IMG/VR virus record: IMGVR_UViG_3300017757_000040
Span: 1-37,719 of that record
Length of the DNA: 37,719 nucleotides
From: a virus
Direction: 5' to 3' (one strand)
Shown here: positions 15,162 through 37,719 of the stretch, in pieces
Layout: each line of letters opens with the position of its first letter
Numbering within the stretch: position 1 is the first letter of the stretch
Translations under genes and position numbers: made by a program
Notes under the pieces: model-generated
Database searches by the model: none
Told to the model about the DNA's origin: nothing
Seen by the model: the letters and a program-made list of their open reading frames with translations, nothing else

Positions 15162-16733
15162 ATGGCTGTTGCAATAATCCTGAAGAGCAGTTCAGTCGAG
15201 GACAGGAGACCGCAACCAGCACAATTAAGTTTCAACGAGATTAGCCTTAACTACAACGAGGCAGGACCGTTTATTTGCTGCAAGGATTCAAGCGGCAAAA
15301 TTGTTCAGCTAGGCGGGGTCAAATTTAATTCAGACGTACCAGCGGATGCTTTGCCTGGAACGTGGTGGTGGAATACTGGCACCAAAACCCTTTACGTGTG
15401 GGATGGTCTGATCTGGAATGAGGTAGGGGGGCAGAGTGGGGGAGGCACGGGCATCACTCAAATTCTTGGTGATGATGGCATTGATGCGTTTGTGAATGGC
15501 AGCGTTGTCACGCTAAATGTTGATGCTGACAGCAATAAAGGTCTTCATTTCTTAGCTGATCGTCTTGCGATTAATGTTGGGGCTAATCTCAGTTTTGACA
15601 GTGAAGGAAGATTAAAAGCAGATATTTTATCGGTTTCATACAAAGGAACACTTGACCTTGCGAACGATCCTGTTGTCTCAAACCCTAGTTTAAATGACGC
15701 TTACATTAACACTGTTGTTGGCACCTTAAATGCTGCTTGGCAGGCCGCTACAGGGGAAGGGGCTTTAGTTGTTAAATCTGGCGATTCAGTTATTTACGGG
15801 CCTTCAGGGTGGTCATTTATCCCTGCATCAGCTACACCAACTGATTTGGGCGTTAATGGACGCACTGCTACTCAACTCAACATCACAAGCAGCACAGGCA
15901 GCAGTGCAGCTCTGCTGGCGGCGACTGATCTTTTAGCTGGACTGATGACAGCGGGGGACAAAGACAAGCTTGATGATATTGAAGATGGAGCACAAGTTAA
16001 TGTCAACTCTGATTGGGTTGCCACTACTGGCGATGCCGAAATTCTAAATAAACCTACAATTCCAGCAGCACAAATCAACTCTAACTGGAGCGCCACCAGT
16101 GGAATTGCGGAGATCCTAAACAAGCCTACAATTCCAGCAGCACAAGTCAACTCTGACTGGAGCGCCACCAGTGGAATTGCGGAGATACTAAACAAGCCAT
16201 CTGTCATCGATGGCGATGCTCCATCTGATGGCAAGAACTATGGGAGAAAAGATGCGGCATGGTCAGAAATCGAGCCGGGAGGCGTTACCCAAATCAGCGC
16301 AGGCACCAACGTAACGATCAGCCCAGTTGGTGGTACTGGCGCGGTCACCGTTAACGCTGACATTGGCGAAGCCCCAAACGATGGGCTGCAATATGCAAGG
16401 CAGAGCGAAACCTGGACTGAAGTAACAGGCGCAATAGCAACTGTTGATACGACAAGCATCAACACAAACTTTGCAATAAGTCCCGACACGGGAACGATGT
16501 TCATAGGTTTTATCGACGCTAATCGCACTTACACTGATGATATGGATAGCGGTGAAAGTATTACGATGATGGTTCGTAGATCTAATGCTGCTTACAGCAT
16601 TACATGGCCAACTATGAAATGGGTTGGTGGGTCACAACCTATTTTGCCTTCAGCAACTGGAGCCTATGCAATCATCACTGTCTGGAAAGCAGACACAACT
16701 TTATTCGGTTCTTATGGCGGAGATGCTTCGTAA
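15162..16733 (+). CDS. Tail fibre protein with 24-residue tandem repeats
   Basis: A 523-residue protein from ATG 15162. The N-terminal part (about 55-90) carries DALPGTWWWNTGTKTLYVWDG, a short domain common in cyanophage fibre proteins. Residues about 273-345 hold three tandem copies of a 24-residue unit related to VNSDWSATSGIAEILNKPTI, widespread in phage fibres, where it forms a trimeric shaft. The C-terminus (about 430-523) is a beta-rich domain with ITWPTMKWVGGSQP, which recurs in the 896-residue fibre downstream as VTWPTSVKWPNDTAP. The shared tail suggests a common trimer-capping domain. Confidence 0.75.
   Translation: MAVAIILKSSSVEDRRPQPAQLSFNEISLNYNEAGPFICCKDSSGKIVQLGGVKFNSDVPADALPGTWWWNTGTKTLYVWDGLIWNEVGGQSGGGTGITQILGDDGIDAFVNGSVVTLNVDADSNKGLHFLADRLAINVGANLSFDSEGRLKADILSVSYKGTLDLANDPVVSNPSLNDAYINTVVGTLNAAWQAATGEGALVVKSGDSVIYGPSGWSFIPASATPTDLGVNGRTATQLNITSSTGSSAALLAATDLLAGLMTAGDKDKLDDIEDGAQVNVNSDWVATTGDAEILNKPTIPAAQINSNWSATSGIAEILNKPTIPAAQVNSDWSATSGIAEILNKPSVIDGDAPSDGKNYGRKDAAWSEIEPGGVTQISAGTNVTISPVGGTGAVTVNADIGEAPNDGLQYARQSETWTEVTGAIATVDTTSINTNFAISPDTGTMFIGFIDANRTYTDDMDSGESITMMVRRSNAAYSITWPTMKWVGGSQPILPSATGAYAIITVWKADTTLFGSYGGDAS
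15981..16196 (+). repeat. Three 72-bp in-frame tandem repeats
   Basis: Units begin near 15981 (diverged), 16053 and 16125 and encode the 24-residue fibre motif. The last two units are almost identical at DNA level, which points to recent duplication and makes the repeat number likely to vary between related phages. Confidence 0.8.
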
Positions 16734-18424
16734 TGTTATTAGCACAAAGTTTATTAGCATCACAAAAATTCGAAGATCGCTATTACGAGTTCACGACAAC
16801 ATCTAACACTATAAACTATTTTCCGCAGGTAAGACCTTATGGCGGATCAGTAACTATTGACTGGGGCGACGGCAACATTGAAGTAGGTTTAGATTGTTCT
16901 ACTTCTGCTCCTGCTTATAAAGAGTACCAACACACTTACTCAGTGGCGGGAAGTTACACAGTAAGAATTTCAACTGAACGCAACGCCTCGTTCTCAATTT
17001 ATTGTGGCTCTAACACATATTTTGACACATCTACTCTTTCTGTAACTGGTTCAACAAAACAAAGAGGGCGCAGCTGGGACAATGCGTTTCTTGATATGAC
17101 TGAAACAGCAGTTAATGGAATGCCAAATGTCAATACAGAGCACGTCACAGACATGAGTTCCACATTTGAAGATGCAAATAACATTACTTCTCTACCTGCT
17201 TACGATACAAGAAACGTTACTGATTTCAGTTCTGTCTTCAAAGGTTGCGGTGCGCTTATTGATTTTCCCGCTATAGATACGAGCAGCGCAACTGATATGG
17301 CTGAAATGTTTCAAAACTGCGCGAGCCTTAATTCAAGCAGTCCGCCCACATATAACTGCTCAAACGTGACTACAGCAGCAAGTATGTTTGAAGACTGCGT
17401 TGACCTTACTCTTATACCTACGTTAACGAATTTGTCTCCTAGCAATACCAGAGGTTATGACTATTTTGCCAATGGCTGCACTAGCTTAACAACAGCACCA
17501 ACATTTGATTTAAGCAATGTGATTTCAGTAAGAGGAATGTTTGCAAACTGTACCAGCCTTGCATCGTTTCCTTTTACTTCATTGCCTTCTCATATCACAG
17601 ATATTACATCTCTGTGCCATGGGCTTACACAGTTCACAACATTTCCTTCCCTTGATATTTCAAACGCAACGAACGGATCGCAACTGTTTTCTTACCTGAC
17701 GCAAAATTTCACTGTACCAAACTGGGATTATTCCAATCTTACCAGTATAAGAAATTTTTTCTGGCATTCATCGGGATTGACAAATGCCAACATGCCAAGT
17801 GCGAGCACACTTAATATTAACTGGTCAAACATAAGCGACGCATCCAATTTTTTTGGTTACTCCGGCATAACGGCTTGCCCTAACTGGGATTTCTCAAGTC
17901 TTACTACTACGGATAGCATGTTTGAAGGATGCGCCTCTCTTACAACTTTACCGTCAACCTTAAATTTCTCAAACTCTACTAACGCTCAGGGCATGTTTGA
18001 CGACTGTATTTCTCTTGCTGCTATACCAGCTTTAGATTTTTCATCGGTAGTAGAAGGCCGTTCAATATTTCAAGGTTGCACTTCATTGGTTACATTTCCT
18101 TCAGGGATCACTTTTGATTCTTTAACAAGAACTTCCCAAATGTTTTATGGATGCAGCAGTTTAGCTAACTTCCCGGCGGGAGTGTTTGACACTACTGGCA
18201 ATTTTGGCCCAGGTGTCTACCACCTTTTTACCTTTCAAGGGTGTGCGCTTACTCCACAATCTATTGAAAACATTCTGGTGTCTTTGAACACGAACTCTGT
18301 CGCTATACCTAGGCTAGATCTTGGTGGCGGCACCAATGCTGGAATGTCAACGTGGAGCACAGCTGCTCTAGCTGCCTGGAATAGCCTAAGAAGTAACGGT
18401 ACTCAAACTTGGGAGAACCCTTGA
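16733..18424 (+). CDS. BspA-type leucine-rich-repeat adhesin with PKD-like domain
   Basis: I start at ATG 16733, coupled to the previous stop (TAATG), giving 563 residues. An upstream extension overlaps the fibre gene and reads like noise. Residues about 23-82 resemble a PKD fold (VTIDWGDGNIEVG, then YQHTYSVAGSYTVRIS). From about 136 to 506 there are a dozen or more units of the BspA/DUF285 type, with cores such as VTDMSSTFEDANNITSLPA and MFYGCSSLANFP. Such repeats occur on bacterial and protist surface proteins and bind host molecules. Within a phage fibre block the protein is best read as a receptor-binding adhesin. I see no signal peptide or anchor, as expected for a virion protein. Confidence 0.75.
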   Translation: MLLAQSLLASQKFEDRYYEFTTTSNTINYFPQVRPYGGSVTIDWGDGNIEVGLDCSTSAPAYKEYQHTYSVAGSYTVRISTERNASFSIYCGSNTYFDTSTLSVTGSTKQRGRSWDNAFLDMTETAVNGMPNVNTEHVTDMSSTFEDANNITSLPAYDTRNVTDFSSVFKGCGALIDFPAIDTSSATDMAEMFQNCASLNSSSPPTYNCSNVTTAASMFEDCVDLTLIPTLTNLSPSNTRGYDYFANGCTSLTTAPTFDLSNVISVRGMFANCTSLASFPFTSLPSHITDITSLCHGLTQFTTFPSLDISNATNGSQLFSYLTQNFTVPNWDYSNLTSIRNFFWHSSGLTNANMPSASTLNINWSNISDASNFFGYSGITACPNWDFSSLTTTDSMFEGCASLTTLPSTLNFSNSTNAQGMFDDCISLAAIPALDFSSVVEGRSIFQGCTSLVTFPSGITFDSLTRTSQMFYGCSSLANFPAGVFDTTGNFGPGVYHLFTFQGCALTPQSIENILVSLNTNSVAIPRLDLGGGTNAGMSTWSTAALAAWNSLRSNGTQTWENP

Positions 18425-28182: not shown

Positions 28183-28226
28183 CTCAAAACCTTTCATAAC
28201 CAAAAATTAAGTGGTGGGGCTCCACA

Positions 28227-29065: not shown

Positions 29066-29100
29066 TGTGATGTGGTGTCGGCAACCACAGCATAACCGCT

Positions 29101-30135: not shown

Positions 30136-30180
30136 GTGGCCTCTAGGGGTGGTGGGAGCGAAGACTGAGTACGAACCCGA

Positions 30181-32019: not shown

Positions 32020-33053
32020 TGATTGACTCCGATTGATTTGGATTGTGATCTGAATGCAGTGATGATTTGTTTTGCTTCTTGAGTGGCTGGTGTCTCGTCA
32101 GCAAAAAAGAACTGCCCTGATGAAGCAATTTCAAGTGTTAAATCAGCAATGGCCATCGGGATAGGGGCGCTGTCTTTAGGGGCCGCGCTGGATCTGTATT
32201 CCATGCAGATCTCTTTTTTGGTTGATCGCGGGGTGTCAAGTGGATCAGTTCGGAACGCTTGGCTCTGAGGTTTTCCTATTTGATCAATTTTTAATGCGTA
32301 GTTTGAGAAACCCAAGCTGAGCCAACCTCTTTCAGCGGCTTGCTCTAAAAACTCATCAGCCACTTTTTTGCTGATGGCATACCGCAAAGCTTTTGCTGAC
32401 CGTTGATGAATGCCCCAAGGGTCTTTGCGCCCGGTTGAGGGATGAGATTCCCACCGTTGCTCTAGCCAGGCTTTAACTGGTTCGAGATAACCGCTGAACT
32501 CAATAGGGGCTTGCTCAATCCATTTTTGGATCAGCTCATCTTTTTTCTCGACTTTCCGTTTTGCCTTTTTTGGTGGCTCTTCTTCTTTAGTTAATTGAGT
32601 CTTGTTCAGTAAGTCTTGTTCAGTAAGTCTTGTTACTCGGTCACCCTGACCATAGGGTCCAGTCACCCTGACCATAGGGTCTAGTCTGTCTGACCATAGG
32701 GTATGGTCACCCTGACCATAGGGTATGTTCAATTTGACCATATGGTCACGGCCTGCGAGATCCCAAACAAGAACTTCGTAGAGGTTTGAAGAAAGACTCC
32801 CGTCAGTTTTTTGTCGGCGCGTCCAACGGATAATTTGTTTCTCGACTAACCCTGCCAACGCCCTTTGAACACCTGATTTTGAAATCATTGCCATTGAAGC
32901 AATAGTTGAGTGAGAGGGGAAAACTTTTGTTGTCCCAAAAGACAACAACACGCAAAGAACAGCCAGCTCAGGCGGGGCCAATTTTCCAAAGATCCAATTA
33001 GGGACTTGCGTGAATGGAATTTGATAGACGATCTGCTCATCTTGCTTATCCAT
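32016..33053 (-). CDS. Replication initiation protein with N-terminal winged helix (O-like), iterons inside the gene
   Basis: 345 residues from ATG 33053. The N-terminal about 90 residues match the HTH_36 / phage replication-initiator winged helix (IPNWIFGKL-like VPNWIFGKLAPPELAVLCVL, then SHSTIASMAMISKSGVQRAL). Residues about 100-140 are encoded by the iterons and are low-conservation linker (DHTLWSDRLDPMVRVTG). A Lys-rich stretch (about 155-172) and a helical C-terminal domain follow, presumably contacting the helicase encoded next. It should bind the iterons, open the nearby A/T-rich repeats and recruit DnaB. It overlaps the upstream gene by eight bases. Confidence 0.75.
   Translation of the reverse strand: MDKQDEQIVYQIPFTQVPNWIFGKLAPPELAVLCVLLSFGTTKVFPSHSTIASMAMISKSGVQRALAGLVEKQIIRWTRRQKTDGSLSSNLYEVLVWDLAGRDHMVKLNIPYGQGDHTLWSDRLDPMVRVTGPYGQGDRVTRLTEQDLLNKTQLTKEEEPPKKAKRKVEKKDELIQKWIEQAPIEFSGYLEPVKAWLEQRWESHPSTGRKDPWGIHQRSAKALRYAISKKVADEFLEQAAERGWLSLGFSNYALKIDQIGKPQSQAFRTDPLDTPRSTKKEICMEYRSSAAPKDSAPIPMAIADLTLEIASSGQFFFADETPATQEAKQIITAFRSQSKSIGVNQ
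32599..32636. repeat. 14-bp tandem repeats next to the iterons, possible unwinding element
   Basis: GTCTTGTTCAGTAA occurs at 32599-32612 and 32613-32626, with a partial copy from 32627. It is A/T-rich compared with the neighbourhood. It directly abuts the iterons and, like them, has a period that is not a multiple of three, so it is conserved as DNA and not as protein repeats. Confidence 0.6.
32642..32746. repeat. Five 22-bp-period iterons within the replication gene (putative origin)
   Basis: Repeats of the type CACCCTGACCATAGGGT begin at 32642, 32664, 32686, 32708 and 32730, exactly 22 bases apart (two helical turns). Copies 1, 2 and 4 are identical, 3 differs at the left edge and 5 is the most diverged. 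Each holds the dyad ACCCT...AGGGT. Because 22 is not divisible by three, the coding frame reads each copy differently, so selection must act on DNA. Confidence 0.85.
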
Positions 33054-33360: not shown

Positions 33361-33383
33361 TGTGTGGTGGTGGTTCACTAACA

Positions 33384-33492: not shown

Positions 33493-33515
33493 AAGAGCCA
33501 CCACCACGGAAACCC

Positions 33516-34041: not shown

Positions 34042-35376
34042 TTAAAACATACGCGGAACAGCAAGGTATTGACCTCCCTGACCTACCTGAATCGTCTTCA
34101 GCACACCCGCAAGCAAAGCCCTTTGTTCGGCAGGCGTGGCGCCTAGAAAAAATCCCGGTTGCTTGATCAGCTCCAAATAAACTTCAACGTTTGGCGTTGA
34201 AACGGGTTTGGATTGGATACTCACAATCTCTTTCTCAAGCAGCTCAACAGCAGGAAGCAACGCAGGGTTACGTTCAGCTAGTGCTCTTGTCGCCTCAAGA
34301 TCAGCAATCTTCAGGCTCAGCACTGGATTTATTGAAGCTGGAGCAGCAGCAGCTTCAGCCATTATTTGCGCCGCTTTGACTGCCTCATCAGCAGCCCATT
34401 GAAGGGCAATCTGTTCTTTGACTTTGCCTCGATCAAAACAATTTCGATGACGGCAACTCCACCATGCAACGCCGCCACTGCTATTTCGTCGCAGATTGTG
34501 ACCACAGTTCAGGCAGCTAAGGCTTCCTGTCAAACCATGTTTAGGAGCAAGCCTGTCTCCAATAACTGGTTCGTGTTCATTATTGACAAATTTGCGAGAT
34601 TGTCTCTGAAGAACAATTTTCAATTCTTGCCAATCAAACTCACTAATTAAAGCTTCATGCTGGTCATAGTGAATTTCTGCCCAAGTCGCCTTCCAGCCCT
34701 TGCCCGATTTACGGTCATAGAGATGAGGCAGGTGCCCTCGAATAATTGGATTAACTAACCAATACTGCAAAGAGCTAGGGGCAGGAGTCCAGACAAATTT
34801 TTCTTTCGCGAGTGTTCGGCTGACTTTTGAGAACGAAGCTTTCTCGCGTAAAAGATCTAAAACGTGCAGGGCTTTGTCCCAGTTGTCAGGATGTGGGGTA
34901 AGTCCATGGTTGCCGTTGTAGCAATACCCAAATGTCATTCTTCTTCTAAGGGCTCGACCTTGTTTGCGATAGACCTTGAATTGCGATTTGATCCGCATAC
35001 TCAGCATTCTGCGTTCATGCTCGGCCATCGTGGTCAAGATTCTGCTCATAACAAAACCACTAGGAGATGCTGCCTCAATAACACCGCCGTCTAACGCCTT
35101 GACTTCAACTTTCTGCTCAGCACACATAGCAAGCAAAGTATCCGTGAATTGAGCGTCACGACCCAAGCGATCAACACGGGTTATCAACAGCTTTCCAACG
35201 CGCCCACGTTTGATCTGGTCAATTAATTCAAGGATCCCTGGCCGGTCGTTGCGTCCGCCGCTAACCAGCTCCTGAATTACGTGCGAACAACCAGCTTCAT
35301 GAAGACGAGAAACCTGAGCTGACAGGGCTTCTTCCTGCTCGTCCGTACTGACACGAGCGTATCCAATGGTTTCCAA
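34042..35376 (-). CDS. Serine site-specific recombinase (XisF-like, large serine recombinase)
   Basis: 444 residues from TTG 35376 (METIGYARVSTDEQ). The N-terminal catalytic domain (about 1-140) has the nucleophile Ser10, an Arg cluster (RVDRLGRDAQFTDTLLAMC, about 65-85) and a helix E. Residues about 150-280 form the recombinase domain (PIIRGHLPHL). A zinc ribbon with four Cys (CLNCGHNLRR, CRHRNC, about 285-315) follows, then a coiled coil with Ala-rich and Glu-rich segments. It resembles cyanobacterial XisF proteins and phage integrases and should integrate or excise this element. Without att sites I cannot say which. It is preceded by CCACCACCAC (35383-35392). Confidence 0.85.
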   Translation of the reverse strand: METIGYARVSTDEQEEALSAQVSRLHEAGCSHVIQELVSGGRNDRPGILELIDQIKRGRVGKLLITRVDRLGRDAQFTDTLLAMCAEQKVEVKALDGGVIEAASPSGFVMSRILTTMAEHERRMLSMRIKSQFKVYRKQGRALRRRMTFGYCYNGNHGLTPHPDNWDKALHVLDLLREKASFSKVSRTLAKEKFVWTPAPSSLQYWLVNPIIRGHLPHLYDRKSGKGWKATWAEIHYDQHEALISEFDWQELKIVLQRQSRKFVNNEHEPVIGDRLAPKHGLTGSLSCLNCGHNLRRNSSGGVAWWSCRHRNCFDRGKVKEQIALQWAADEAVKAAQIMAEAAAAPASINPVLSLKIADLEATRALAERNPALLPAVELLEKEIVSIQSKPVSTPNVEVYLELIKQPGFFLGATPAEQRALLAGVLKTIQVGQGGQYLAVPRMF

Positions 35377-35393
35377 TGGCCTGTGGTGGTGGC

Positions 35394-35440
35394 TATGCGC
35401 TACCTAACCTATATCCAATGAAAACGTCAAAGTAGCGCAT
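35394..35440. repeat. 9-bp inverted repeat upstream of the recombinase
   Basis: ATGCGCTAC (35394-35402) and GTAGCGCAT (35432-35440) flank a 29-base A/T-rich spacer. TTGACG, a possible -35 on the minus strand, lies in the spacer. It could be an autoregulatory operator or part of an attachment site. Confidence 0.4.
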
Positions 35441-35531
35441 GGCAAAGAAAACAAGGCCACGACTGGCCTTCTCTATTCATAGCACCAGCTGCTTGCTGCT
35501 CCGGTATGATGTAGAAGTCAGAAGAAATTAA

Positions 35532-35613
35532 TCTGAACCTGATCGCTGCATAAGACTGTGGTGGTTGGCTGTAAGCGATCAGGAAGAGAAGCCTCCTCAA
35601 GGGGGCTTTTCTT
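35532..35613 (+). ncRNA. Candidate small RNA with anti-CCACCAC loop
   Basis: CCTGATCGCT (35538-35547) pairs perfectly over 10 bases with AGCGATCAGG (35574-35583), with TCT/AGA extending the stem past a 3x3 internal loop. The 26-base loop contains TGTGGTGGTTGG (35557-35568), complementary to the CCACCAC tracts that precede at least seven early genes. A good terminator follows. TATGAT (35505-35510) is a possible -10, with no clear -35. There is no + strand gene upstream that would need this terminator, so a short independent transcript is reasonable. Both promoter and function are inferred. Confidence 0.45.
35589..35613 (+). terminator. Terminator of the candidate small RNA
   Basis: An 8-bp stem (AAGCCTCC with GGGGGCTT, one G-U pair), loop TCAA, followed by TTCTT directly after the stem. 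It is oriented on the plus strand; the reverse strand has no T-tract. Confidence 0.7.
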
Positions 35614-35622
35614 GTGAGTATG

Positions 35623-35652
35623 CTGCAATATGCTAGCTAGCTGTGGTAGCTT
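35623..35652 (+). promoter_or_regulatory. Possible promoter of the sigma factor operon with GCTAGCTAG (35632-35640)
   Basis: CTGCAA (35623-35628) and TAGCTT (35647-35652) are weak -35 and -10 candidates 18 bases apart, with the palindrome in the spacer. The leader has GTGGT followed later by ACCACCG (35664-35670), which could form a hairpin. ATG is at 35677. Confidence 0.45.
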
Positions 35653-35676
35653 GTAAACAACGGACCACCGCAGGCT

Positions 35677-36690
35677 ATGGACACTCTTGGAAGCTATTTG
35701 AAAAGCATTGGGAAAATTCCTTTGCTTACAGCAGACGAAGAAATTACATTGGCTAGAAAAATCCACGCAGGCATAGCAACTTCAAAAGAAGTAGGCGAGC
35801 AAACGCCAACTCCGGCACAGCGACGGACTATTGCATTAGGGAAGCGAGCAAAAGAGCGCATGATCACAAGCAACCTTCGCTTGGTTGTGACTATTGCCAA
35901 AAAATATCGCTATTTCCAAATGGATCTTTTAGATCTGATCCAAGAAGGAACCCTGGGACTGGATCGCGCCGTCGAAAAATTTGACCCAGAACGCGGCTAC
36001 AAATTCTCGACTTATTCTTATTGGTGGATTCGCCAAAGCATCACAAGAGCCATTGAGACGCAAGCTCGGACGATCCGCTTGCCTTTACACCTGTCAGAGC
36101 TACGCCATCGCATTCAAAAAATCAGCAGGGATTTTGAGTTAGAAACTGGCAAAAGTCCTTCCACTGAATACTTAGCTCAAGTTCTTGAGTGCTCAGAAAA
36201 TCGAATCCGTGAAGTCATTGCGGCTTTCACGCCTATTGCAAGTTTGAATGCAACAGGATCGACAGGCAGCAGCAGTCAAGACGAGCGAAGTTCGTTGATG
36301 GATCTTGTAGCTGATCCAACGCAGGAAGAAGCCGCTGATGCGTTTGTGATGCAGCAGGACGCCAATGAAAAACTTTTCCTGTGTTTGAGCTGTCTTACGG
36401 AACGAGAAAAATTGATTGTTGTTCGCTACTACGGCTTAGACAATCAGGAACCTATTTCACTGTCAAAAATTGCGAGCATGATCACGCATAAAACAGCAAA
36501 AGACCAACGAATCACAAGAGAAAGAGTCCGTCAGATCAAAGCAAGAGCCATTACAAAAATGCGATTGCGTTCAGGTCAGATTAATTCGGCCCGATGCAAC
36601 GTCAGAGGAAACATGCACATGGAAATGCCGACAAACAGCTCAGTTCCGGTGCAGCTTCTACCCCGTGAAAGCCAACTGGCATTTGCGTGA
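35677..36690 (+). CDS. RpoD-like sigma factor (cyanobacterial group 2 type)
   Basis: 337 residues from ATG 35677. Region 1.2 (about 1-35; DTLGSYLKSIGKIPLLTADEE), region 2 (about 60-140; RLVVTIAKKYRY, DLIQEGTLGLDRAVEKFDP, FSTYSYWWIRQSITRAIETQ), region 3 (about 140-210) and region 4 (about 238-298; TEREKLIVVRYYGLD, then RITRERVRQIKARAI) are all present. It resembles cyanobacterial group 2 sigma factors, so it likely reprogrammes host RNA polymerase. Region 4 has an insertion before the recognition helix (MITHKTAKDQ) and the C-terminus carries an extra about 38-residue tail, both unlike host versions. Its gene has a palindrome and a CCACC leader. Confidence 0.9.
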   Translation: MDTLGSYLKSIGKIPLLTADEEITLARKIHAGIATSKEVGEQTPTPAQRRTIALGKRAKERMITSNLRLVVTIAKKYRYFQMDLLDLIQEGTLGLDRAVEKFDPERGYKFSTYSYWWIRQSITRAIETQARTIRLPLHLSELRHRIQKISRDFELETGKSPSTEYLAQVLECSENRIREVIAAFTPIASLNATGSTGSSSQDERSSLMDLVADPTQEEAADAFVMQQDANEKLFLCLSCLTEREKLIVVRYYGLDNQEPISLSKIASMITHKTAKDQRITRERVRQIKARAITKMRLRSGQINSARCNVRGNMHMEMPTNSSVPVQLLPRESQLAFA

Positions 36691-36869
36691 ACGAAAACGA
36701 CTACAAGATCATCAAGCTAAAGCCGCAGCGAGTGAAAGGCCAAACAGGCAAATGGGTTTTTGGCAGAAATCGCGGCTACATCAGAGATTGGCGTCGAGCT
36801 ATTGACCAAAGTGCCAGAAAACTGACAGAGAAACCAATTCACTGGCTAGATGATCACCTTGACAACTAG
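36687..36869 (+). CDS. Small basic protein, unknown function
   Basis: 60 residues, GTG 36687, overlapping the sigma stop (GTGA). Basic and aromatic (KPQRVKGQTGKWVFGRNRGY, RDWRRAIDQSARKL). It could bind nucleic acid or the polymerase with the sigma factor, but no family is recognised. Coupling suggests joint production with sigma. Confidence 0.5.
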   Translation: MNENDYKIIKLKPQRVKGQTGKWVFGRNRGYIRDWRRAIDQSARKLTEKPIHWLDDHLDN

Positions 36870-36879
36870 CTAGAATTGG
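36859..36879 (+). promoter_or_regulatory. TTGACA plus CTAGCTAG element before the small HTH gene
   Basis: TTGACA (36859-36864), CTAGCTAG (36866-36873) and ATTGG follow each other exactly as at 1868-1888. It overlaps the end of the preceding gene. ATG 36884 comes only ten bases after the palindrome, so a promoter here would give an almost leaderless message or serve the downstream genes from a different start. Confidence 0.5.
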
Positions 36880-37513: not shown

Positions 37514-37719
37514 ATGACAAAACTCACTGATTTCACCCCCGACCCTAAGAACCTCAACCAAGGAACTGAGCGCGGTAACTACGCCCTAGAGCGCTCGCTT
37601 CGGGACTATGGCTTTGCTCGCCCTGTTGTTGCTGATAAAGATGGCGTCATCCTTGCCGGGAACCACGCTTATCAGAAGGCTGGGGAGATAGGTCTAAAGA
37701 ACGTTCGAGTGATTGAGAC
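37514..37719 (+). CDS. ParB-like nuclease/Srx-domain protein (3' truncated)
   Basis: ATG 37514, one base after the RusA stop; the frame is open to the window edge (68 codons). The fragment (NYALERSLRDYGFARPVVAD, then DGVILAGNHAYQKAGEIGL) matches the start of a ParB N-terminal-like domain, with GNHA in place of the usual GHRR. In phages this domain is often fused to a DNA methylase and lies just before the terminase genes. The rest is outside the window. Confidence 0.6.
   Translation, partial: MTKLTDFTPDPKNLNQGTERGNYALERSLRDYGFARPVVADKDGVILAGNHAYQKAGEIGLKNVRVIE

Follow-up and report, generated by a model that had tools for sequence, protein, structure and literature searches.

A candidate hairpin RNA complementary to the early-gene leaders of a putative cyanophage-like siphovirus

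In the Cluster K mycobacteriophages, a start-associated sequence (SAS), rare in the host, lies shortly before many non-structural start codons and is accompanied by one reverse copy, which the passages of the original description considered here note as unexplained (PMC3203893). According to the same passages, the role of SAS has been open since 2011, the discoverers having raised the question of an RNA or protein, of host or phage origin, as its binding partner (PMC3203893). SAS is also carried by a lytic phage, AnnaSerena (PMC7302621). The locus described below has a comparable layout, with a motif repeated before early genes and a reverse copy of this motif presented by the loop of a hairpin.

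The window analyzed here is the whole of the virus record IMGVR_UViG_3300017757_000040, 37,719 bases. Its source seems to be a cyanophage-like siphovirus, and the record is probably an incomplete fragment, since a ParB-like reading frame (37515–37719, 5′ part only) is cut by the window end, and no terminase or head genes were recognized within the 37,719 bases. Tail and fibre genes run rightward to approximately 26 kb, an early block encoding an ERF recombinase, a DnaB helicase, and winged-helix proteins runs leftward, and beyond it lie a leftward serine recombinase gene and then rightward genes for a sigma factor and RusA. The match between the recombinase and XisF is full-length, its score being below the equivalog cut-off. 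Two further repeat arrays were observed: a 606-aa protein of the tail-fibre region (16604–18424) contains repeats MFxxCxSLxxxPxxDxSxxT, by eye resembling BspA-type surface repeats, and five 22-bp direct repeats (CTGACCATAGGGTCYRGTCACC type, 32646–32755) within the gene of a 345-aa HTH/DnaD-like protein look like replication-origin iterons.

The leader motif of the early genes

CACCAC or CCACC stands 3–13 nt before the start codon of seven early genes (Table 1). CCACCAC is fivefold enriched in the window (16 copies vs. three expected, with none of 100 shuffles yielding as many), and CACCAC is found within 32 nt upstream of the start in six out of 16 early genes (the sigma gene has CCACC), versus none of 22 late ones. 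CCACCAC on either strand also occurs inside coding sequence at about six places. The p110 gene, encoding a winged-helix protein, is the first one of the replication block; ATG 33360 is preferred as its start over GTG 33378.

In three cyanobacterial gene sets, standing in for the phage host, CACCAC precedes 3/170, 4/129, and 1/519 genes, or about 1% of host-type genes, and on these counts CCACCAC was rejected as a host leader habit. The leaders resemble a start-associated sequence in being repeated near non-structural starts and rare before host genes; unlike the Cluster K SAS, GGGATAGGAGCCC, which contains a Shine-Dalgarno core, the motif lacks AGGAG. Three leaders, those of the sigma and ERF genes and of the gene starting at 28197, have an upstream GTGG(T) with which their CCAC can pair in cis; CCAC–GUGG pairing thus recurs as a theme, both in cis and, perhaps, in trans. 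The possibility that CCACCAC is half of a general DNA operator was rejected, as the GTGGT-N16-ACCAC dyad is fixed in the sigma leader only.

A second overrepresented word, CTAGCTAG, has 10 copies in the window vs. 0.4 expected, nearly all of them intergenic and several inside a likely promoter, e.g., TTGACAACTAGCTAG at 36857–36873. Judging by these positions, it is a likely operator for a phage regulator. Tail-related contigs and S-CBS1 do not contain it, and its combination with CCACCAC as a joint search signature was dropped due to too low specificity.

Table 1. Positions of the leader motif copies and of the features surrounding the hairpin in the window
Feature	Sequence or context	Position	Strand
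Leader motif, 122-aa protein	CCACCAC, 13 nt before ATG 28197	28211–28217	-
Leader motif, ERF recombinase	CACCAC, 6 nt before ATG 29065	29072–29077	-
Leader motif, 241-aa protein	CCACCAC, 13 nt before ATG 30135	30149–30155	-
Leader motif, p110	CCACCACCAC, 3 nt before ATG 33360	33364–33373	-
Leader motif, p110b (no assigned function)	CCACCACCAC, 8 nt before ATG 33516	33498–33507	+
Leader motif, serine recombinase	CCACCACCAC, 6 nt before TTG 35376	35383–35392	-
Leader motif, sigma factor	ACCACC, 7 nt before ATG 35677	35664–35669	+
Large serine recombinase gene	XisF-like, full-length	34042–35376	-
Second perfect dyad	46-bp span, ATGCGCTAC / GTAGCGCAT, encloses the recombinase promoter	35395–35440	
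Leftward terminator	AAGGCCAGTCGTGGCCTTGTTTTCTTTG, separates the dyad from the promoter of the recombinase gene	35443–35470	-
Stem, left arm	CCTGATCGCT, 10-bp	35538–35547	+
Loop	GCATAAGACTGTGGTGGTTGGCTGTA, 26 nt; opposite strand CCAACCACCACAGTCTTATG	35548–35573	+
Stem, right arm	AGCGATCAGG, pairs with CCTGATCGCT	35574–35583	+
Terminator hairpin	AAGAGAAGCCTCC-TCAA-GGGGGCTTTTCTT, 13-bp, abuts the stem on its 3′ side	35584–35613	+
Leftward promoter-like site	TTTACA-16-TAGCAT, score 8.6, top 0.1% of positions	35630–35657	-
Conserved sigma-leader word	GTGGTAGCTTG, exactly 10 nt before ACCACC	35643–35653	+
Sigma factor gene	Sigma-70 family	35677–36690	+
CTAGCTAG copies	10 copies	1806, 1875, 28260, 29102, 30302, 33401, 33474, 34003, 35633, 36866	

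The hairpin and its pairing with the leaders

The sequence-only reading had placed a perfect 10-bp stem with a 26-base loop, followed by a terminator, at 35532–35613, and each of these elements was confirmed base by base. The loop carries the early-leader motif in reverse orientation, and the region 35517–35616 folds as RNA with an energy of −45.2 kcal/mol (z = −5.9). No Rfam family matches the window at the gathering score, and the matches seen are weak and sub-threshold. The stem alone proves nothing, because the number of perfect dyads in the window (arms of at least 9, span of at most 80) is 12, close to the approximately 11 expected by our own estimate.

The pairing of the loop with the leaders is, on the contrary, far beyond chance. 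The summed pairing energy with the seven leaders is equaled by none of 4000 other genomic 26-mers and reached by none of 1000 shuffled loops; when only the loop is shuffled within the complete RNA, one out of 150 variants reaches the real energy and 149 do not, the latter test being conservative, because cofold energies cannot represent loop–loop contacts. Among 41 gene starts, the top five pairings are those of the recombinase (int), sigma, p110b, p110, and ERF leaders, all bearing the motif. The recombinase leader is predicted to pair most strongly, the predicted pairing with the sigma leader covers about 16 bp, including the start codon, and that with the leader of the 241-aa protein is the weakest of seven. 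Hence, the earlier claim of complementarity to tracts shortly before several early starts holds, with gaps of 3–13 nt, and so does the claim of an about 9-base pairing with the replication operon leader: it was found as the 9-nt match AACCACCAC at 33367–33375, with the p110 start reassigned to ATG 33360. The hairpin thus possesses an unpaired region complementary to its presumed target mRNAs beyond chance, a feature of antisense RNAs.

We consider it most likely, with a probability of about 0.45, that the hairpin encodes a terminator-ended anti-leader RNA. In such a short RNA, the hairpin would hold GUGGUGGUUGG open, and the loop would pair with CCACCAC of the early mRNAs and cover the motif, most strongly in the recombinase, sigma, p110b, p110, and ERF leaders, the coverage extending to the start codon in the sigma leader. 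The likely outcome would be joint repression of early translation, e.g., during lysogeny or at a late stage of infection. This is in line with the pairing tests, with the presence of the motif before seven early and no late starts, with the strong rightward terminator, and with the ability of three leaders to pair in cis; the chance-level frequency of stems argues against it.

The same frequency favors another possibility, namely, that an ordinary terminator lies beside a chance dyad with a GTGGTGG centre, while the leaders act alone as a translation or promoter-proximal element. It also agrees with the use of leaders without the RNA in related phages, with the coding copies of CCACCAC, and with the fact that the whole window had been scanned for patterns. 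Nevertheless, we regard it as unlikely, given that none of 4000 genomic 26-mers pairs as well, that the reverse copy sits in the loop of a terminator-closed hairpin in a short gap between two of its best predicted targets, and that the same layout, with covariation, is seen in Cluster K (see below).

Transcription signals and the attP alternative

No rightward promoter above background was found before the hairpin (best score 4.4, top 2% level). The idea of the sequence-only reading that one RNA could control several leaders is therefore supported in part, by the complementarity and the Cluster K parallel, but not by promoter evidence. Promoter scans, however, carry little weight here, because the other early leaders score unevenly and the number of promoter-like sites in the 18–37.7 kb part equals the shuffled expectation. 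Terminators are present on both sides of the dyad, each pointing away from it, and the leftward one is left unexplained by the anti-leader RNA. The rightward terminator precedes the sigma gene's own conserved element and therefore closes a separate short unit; placed between divergent genes, it is most readily understood as ending a short rightward unit or as stopping transcription that comes from outside.

The leftward signals could alternatively belong to a transcript from approximately 35623 to approximately 35443, whose loop, CCAACCACCACAG, would be a copy of the leader titrating a protein or RNA that binds early leaders. This strand does resemble a leader with ATG, and both a high-scoring promoter-like site and a terminator are available to it (Table 1). 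Yet the polymerase would need to read through the 35584–35613 hairpin soon after initiation, the leftward transcript folds less stably (z = −2.2 vs. −5.9), the ATG opens seven codons only, and promoter-like sites in the 18–37.7 kb half are no commoner than in shuffles, making such a decoy improbable.

The placement of both terminators is better accommodated if the 46-bp dyad is attP, the integration site used by the large serine recombinase encoded next to it, with the terminators shielding the prophage and the leader match being a coincidence or a second use. The geometry and placement of the dyad, overlooked in the earlier interpretation, are suggestive: it is a pseudo-palindrome of near 50 bp beside a large serine recombinase gene, 161 bp upstream of this full-length gene, whose other flank has no gap, and its arms lie about 13–22 bp from the centre. 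This is near the geometry of the A118-type structure, with its zinc-ribbon motif at 16–24 and a dimer spanning 50 bp (PMC3783163). With the dyad as attP, the rightward terminator on its right and the leftward one on its left would face inward from both prophage ends, blocking host transcription; a promoter would be unnecessary, so that the terminators and the missing promoter would both be explained. On the other hand, the inner 26 bp have no dyad symmetry, the complementarity of the centre to seven early leaders (0/4000) is not accounted for, and a rival 46-bp dyad, which could be an operator or an alternative attP, is located at 35395–35440. We regard the attP reading as rather unlikely, although it is the main rival of the anti-leader RNA, ahead of coincidence and of the leftward decoy. 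The attP and RNA functions could coexist in the same dyad, in which case integration would split the RNA gene. By eye, the opposite strand of the loop resembles part of the Bxb1 attP, but the register does not fit the centre of the dyad, and the resemblance was set aside.

Related phages and comparison with known systems

Using sigma, recombinase, DnaB, and the 241-aa protein as queries, we found no relative with this early module: the best sigma matches have 41–52% identity, the recombinase has one match at 24%, and the DnaB and 241-aa protein searches gave none. Tail relatives are 75–92% identical, the early region being missing there. Genome contigs yielded no match when searched with the tail and mostly cyanobacterial sigma loci, at up to 45%, when searched with sigma, and the exact loop and stem patterns were seen in viral contigs in coding or unrelated DNA only. 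The absence of a homologue among these leaves the RNA without covariation or loop conservation of its own and counts against the anti-leader reading. In S-CBS1-type phages, CACCAC was counted in 4/26, 6/30, 3/25, and 5/30 cases in stretches with early genes, in agreement with the pattern counts, vs. 0/20 and 1/20 in late halves; the motif is not present in S-CBS3 and KBS-S-2A. These S-CBS1-type leaders occur without a hairpin of the present kind, which is a further argument against the RNA and makes the leader motif independent of it. As one S-CBS1 copy resides in a 15-nt gap between same-strand genes, the element there most likely acts in mRNA. The sigma leader has its own conserved element (35643–35669): GTGGTA[G/C][C/T]TTG-N10-ACCACC, with exact spacing, precedes sigma in the present phage and in eight further cyanophage genomes or contigs, even with sigma proteins that share only about 40–52% identity.

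The parallel in Cluster K can be followed further. The reverse SAS copy of Anaya (59870–59882), located in a 385-bp stretch devoid of annotated genes, where some relatives have an annotated hypothetical protein, is presented by the apical loop of a hairpin (59846–59902). Twelve relatives can be aligned to a common hairpin, in which seven out of 10 outer pairs show compensatory changes and 98.4% of cells are paired; none of 500 shuffles is as good, and slid controls give 32–50%. G–U pairs at positions where the opposite strand gives A–C identify the RNA strand as the one with loop CCUCCUAUCC, which is the complement of SAS. Exactly one reverse GGATAGGAG is present in six out of 12 searched genomes, vs. 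13–19 forward copies. A second GC-rich hairpin, AAAACGGCCCC...GGGGCCGTT, lies upstream of the anti-SAS one. An RNA of this kind is not described in the passages of PMC3203893, PMC11373665, and PMC12699233 considered here, and may still have been published elsewhere.

In view of this unrelated parallel, control by an anti-leader RNA is a reasonable proposal for the cyanophage, with several caveats. The loops of Ekdilam, Hammy, Syra333, and Cain are different and match SAS imperfectly, SAS itself being unchanged, and thus the loop–SAS pairing is not strictly kept; a joint change of loop and SAS was looked for in Cluster K and rejected, SAS being constant where the loop differs. The Cluster K loop also resembles the 16S anti-Shine-Dalgarno sequence. 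AnnaSerena, considered as a third instance, was discarded, as it has no reverse copy even with up to two mismatches. Both the drift of the loop against a constant SAS and the SAS of AnnaSerena without a reverse copy count against the anti-leader RNA. As AnnaSerena and the S-CBS1-type phages, with no known integrase, are without such an RNA, there is a hint that it may serve lysogeny control. That unrelated phages, the cyanophage and Cluster K, have independently evolved a start-proximal motif together with one anti-motif hairpin RNA switching early translation is a tentative idea, and we would lean against it at present. If true, a phage RNA targeting all SAS-like leaders at once would answer the question of what binds SAS, would represent an unusual instance of a single phage RNA controlling an entire early regulon, and would provide a new handle on cyanophage lysogeny.

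In both systems, a start-proximal motif before many non-structural genes is accompanied by a reverse copy in a hairpin loop within a gene-poor gap. The sequence and host of the Cluster K motif are unrelated to those of the present cyanophage, and the Shine-Dalgarno core sets SAS apart from CCACCAC; the Cluster K hairpin is supported by covariation and its gap is far from the integrase, whereas the cyanophage hairpin is a single sequence in a gap adjoining the recombinase. The ~50-bp pseudo-palindrome of the A118/LI-type attP (PMC3783163) is similar in lying beside an integrase and in having outer arms at the zinc-ribbon position, but the inner part of the cyanophage dyad is not palindromic and the complementarity to leaders is foreign to attP.

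The sequence-only reading had named no known precedent for the proposed control; phage antisense RNAs such as c4, sar, and OOP are, however, already known (PMC12197685), and what is unusual is therefore just the targeting of many leaders. Cyanophage S-PM2 also has an antisense RNA, CfrI, which is cis-encoded at psbA, about 225 nt long, and from a different phage type (PMC12197685). P22 sar and lambda OOP are short phage RNAs of about 70–80 nt that tune the lysis–lysogeny choice (PMC12197685), and the candidate would be similar to them; each of the two has one target, that of OOP lying on the strand opposite to it, while the present targets are elsewhere in the genome. The P1/P7 c4 RNA would be similar, if our preferred reading is true, in that complementary stretches presented in loops block a ribosome-binding region (PMC12197685); c4 targets the ant mRNA, while the anti-leader RNA would target several separate early leaders.
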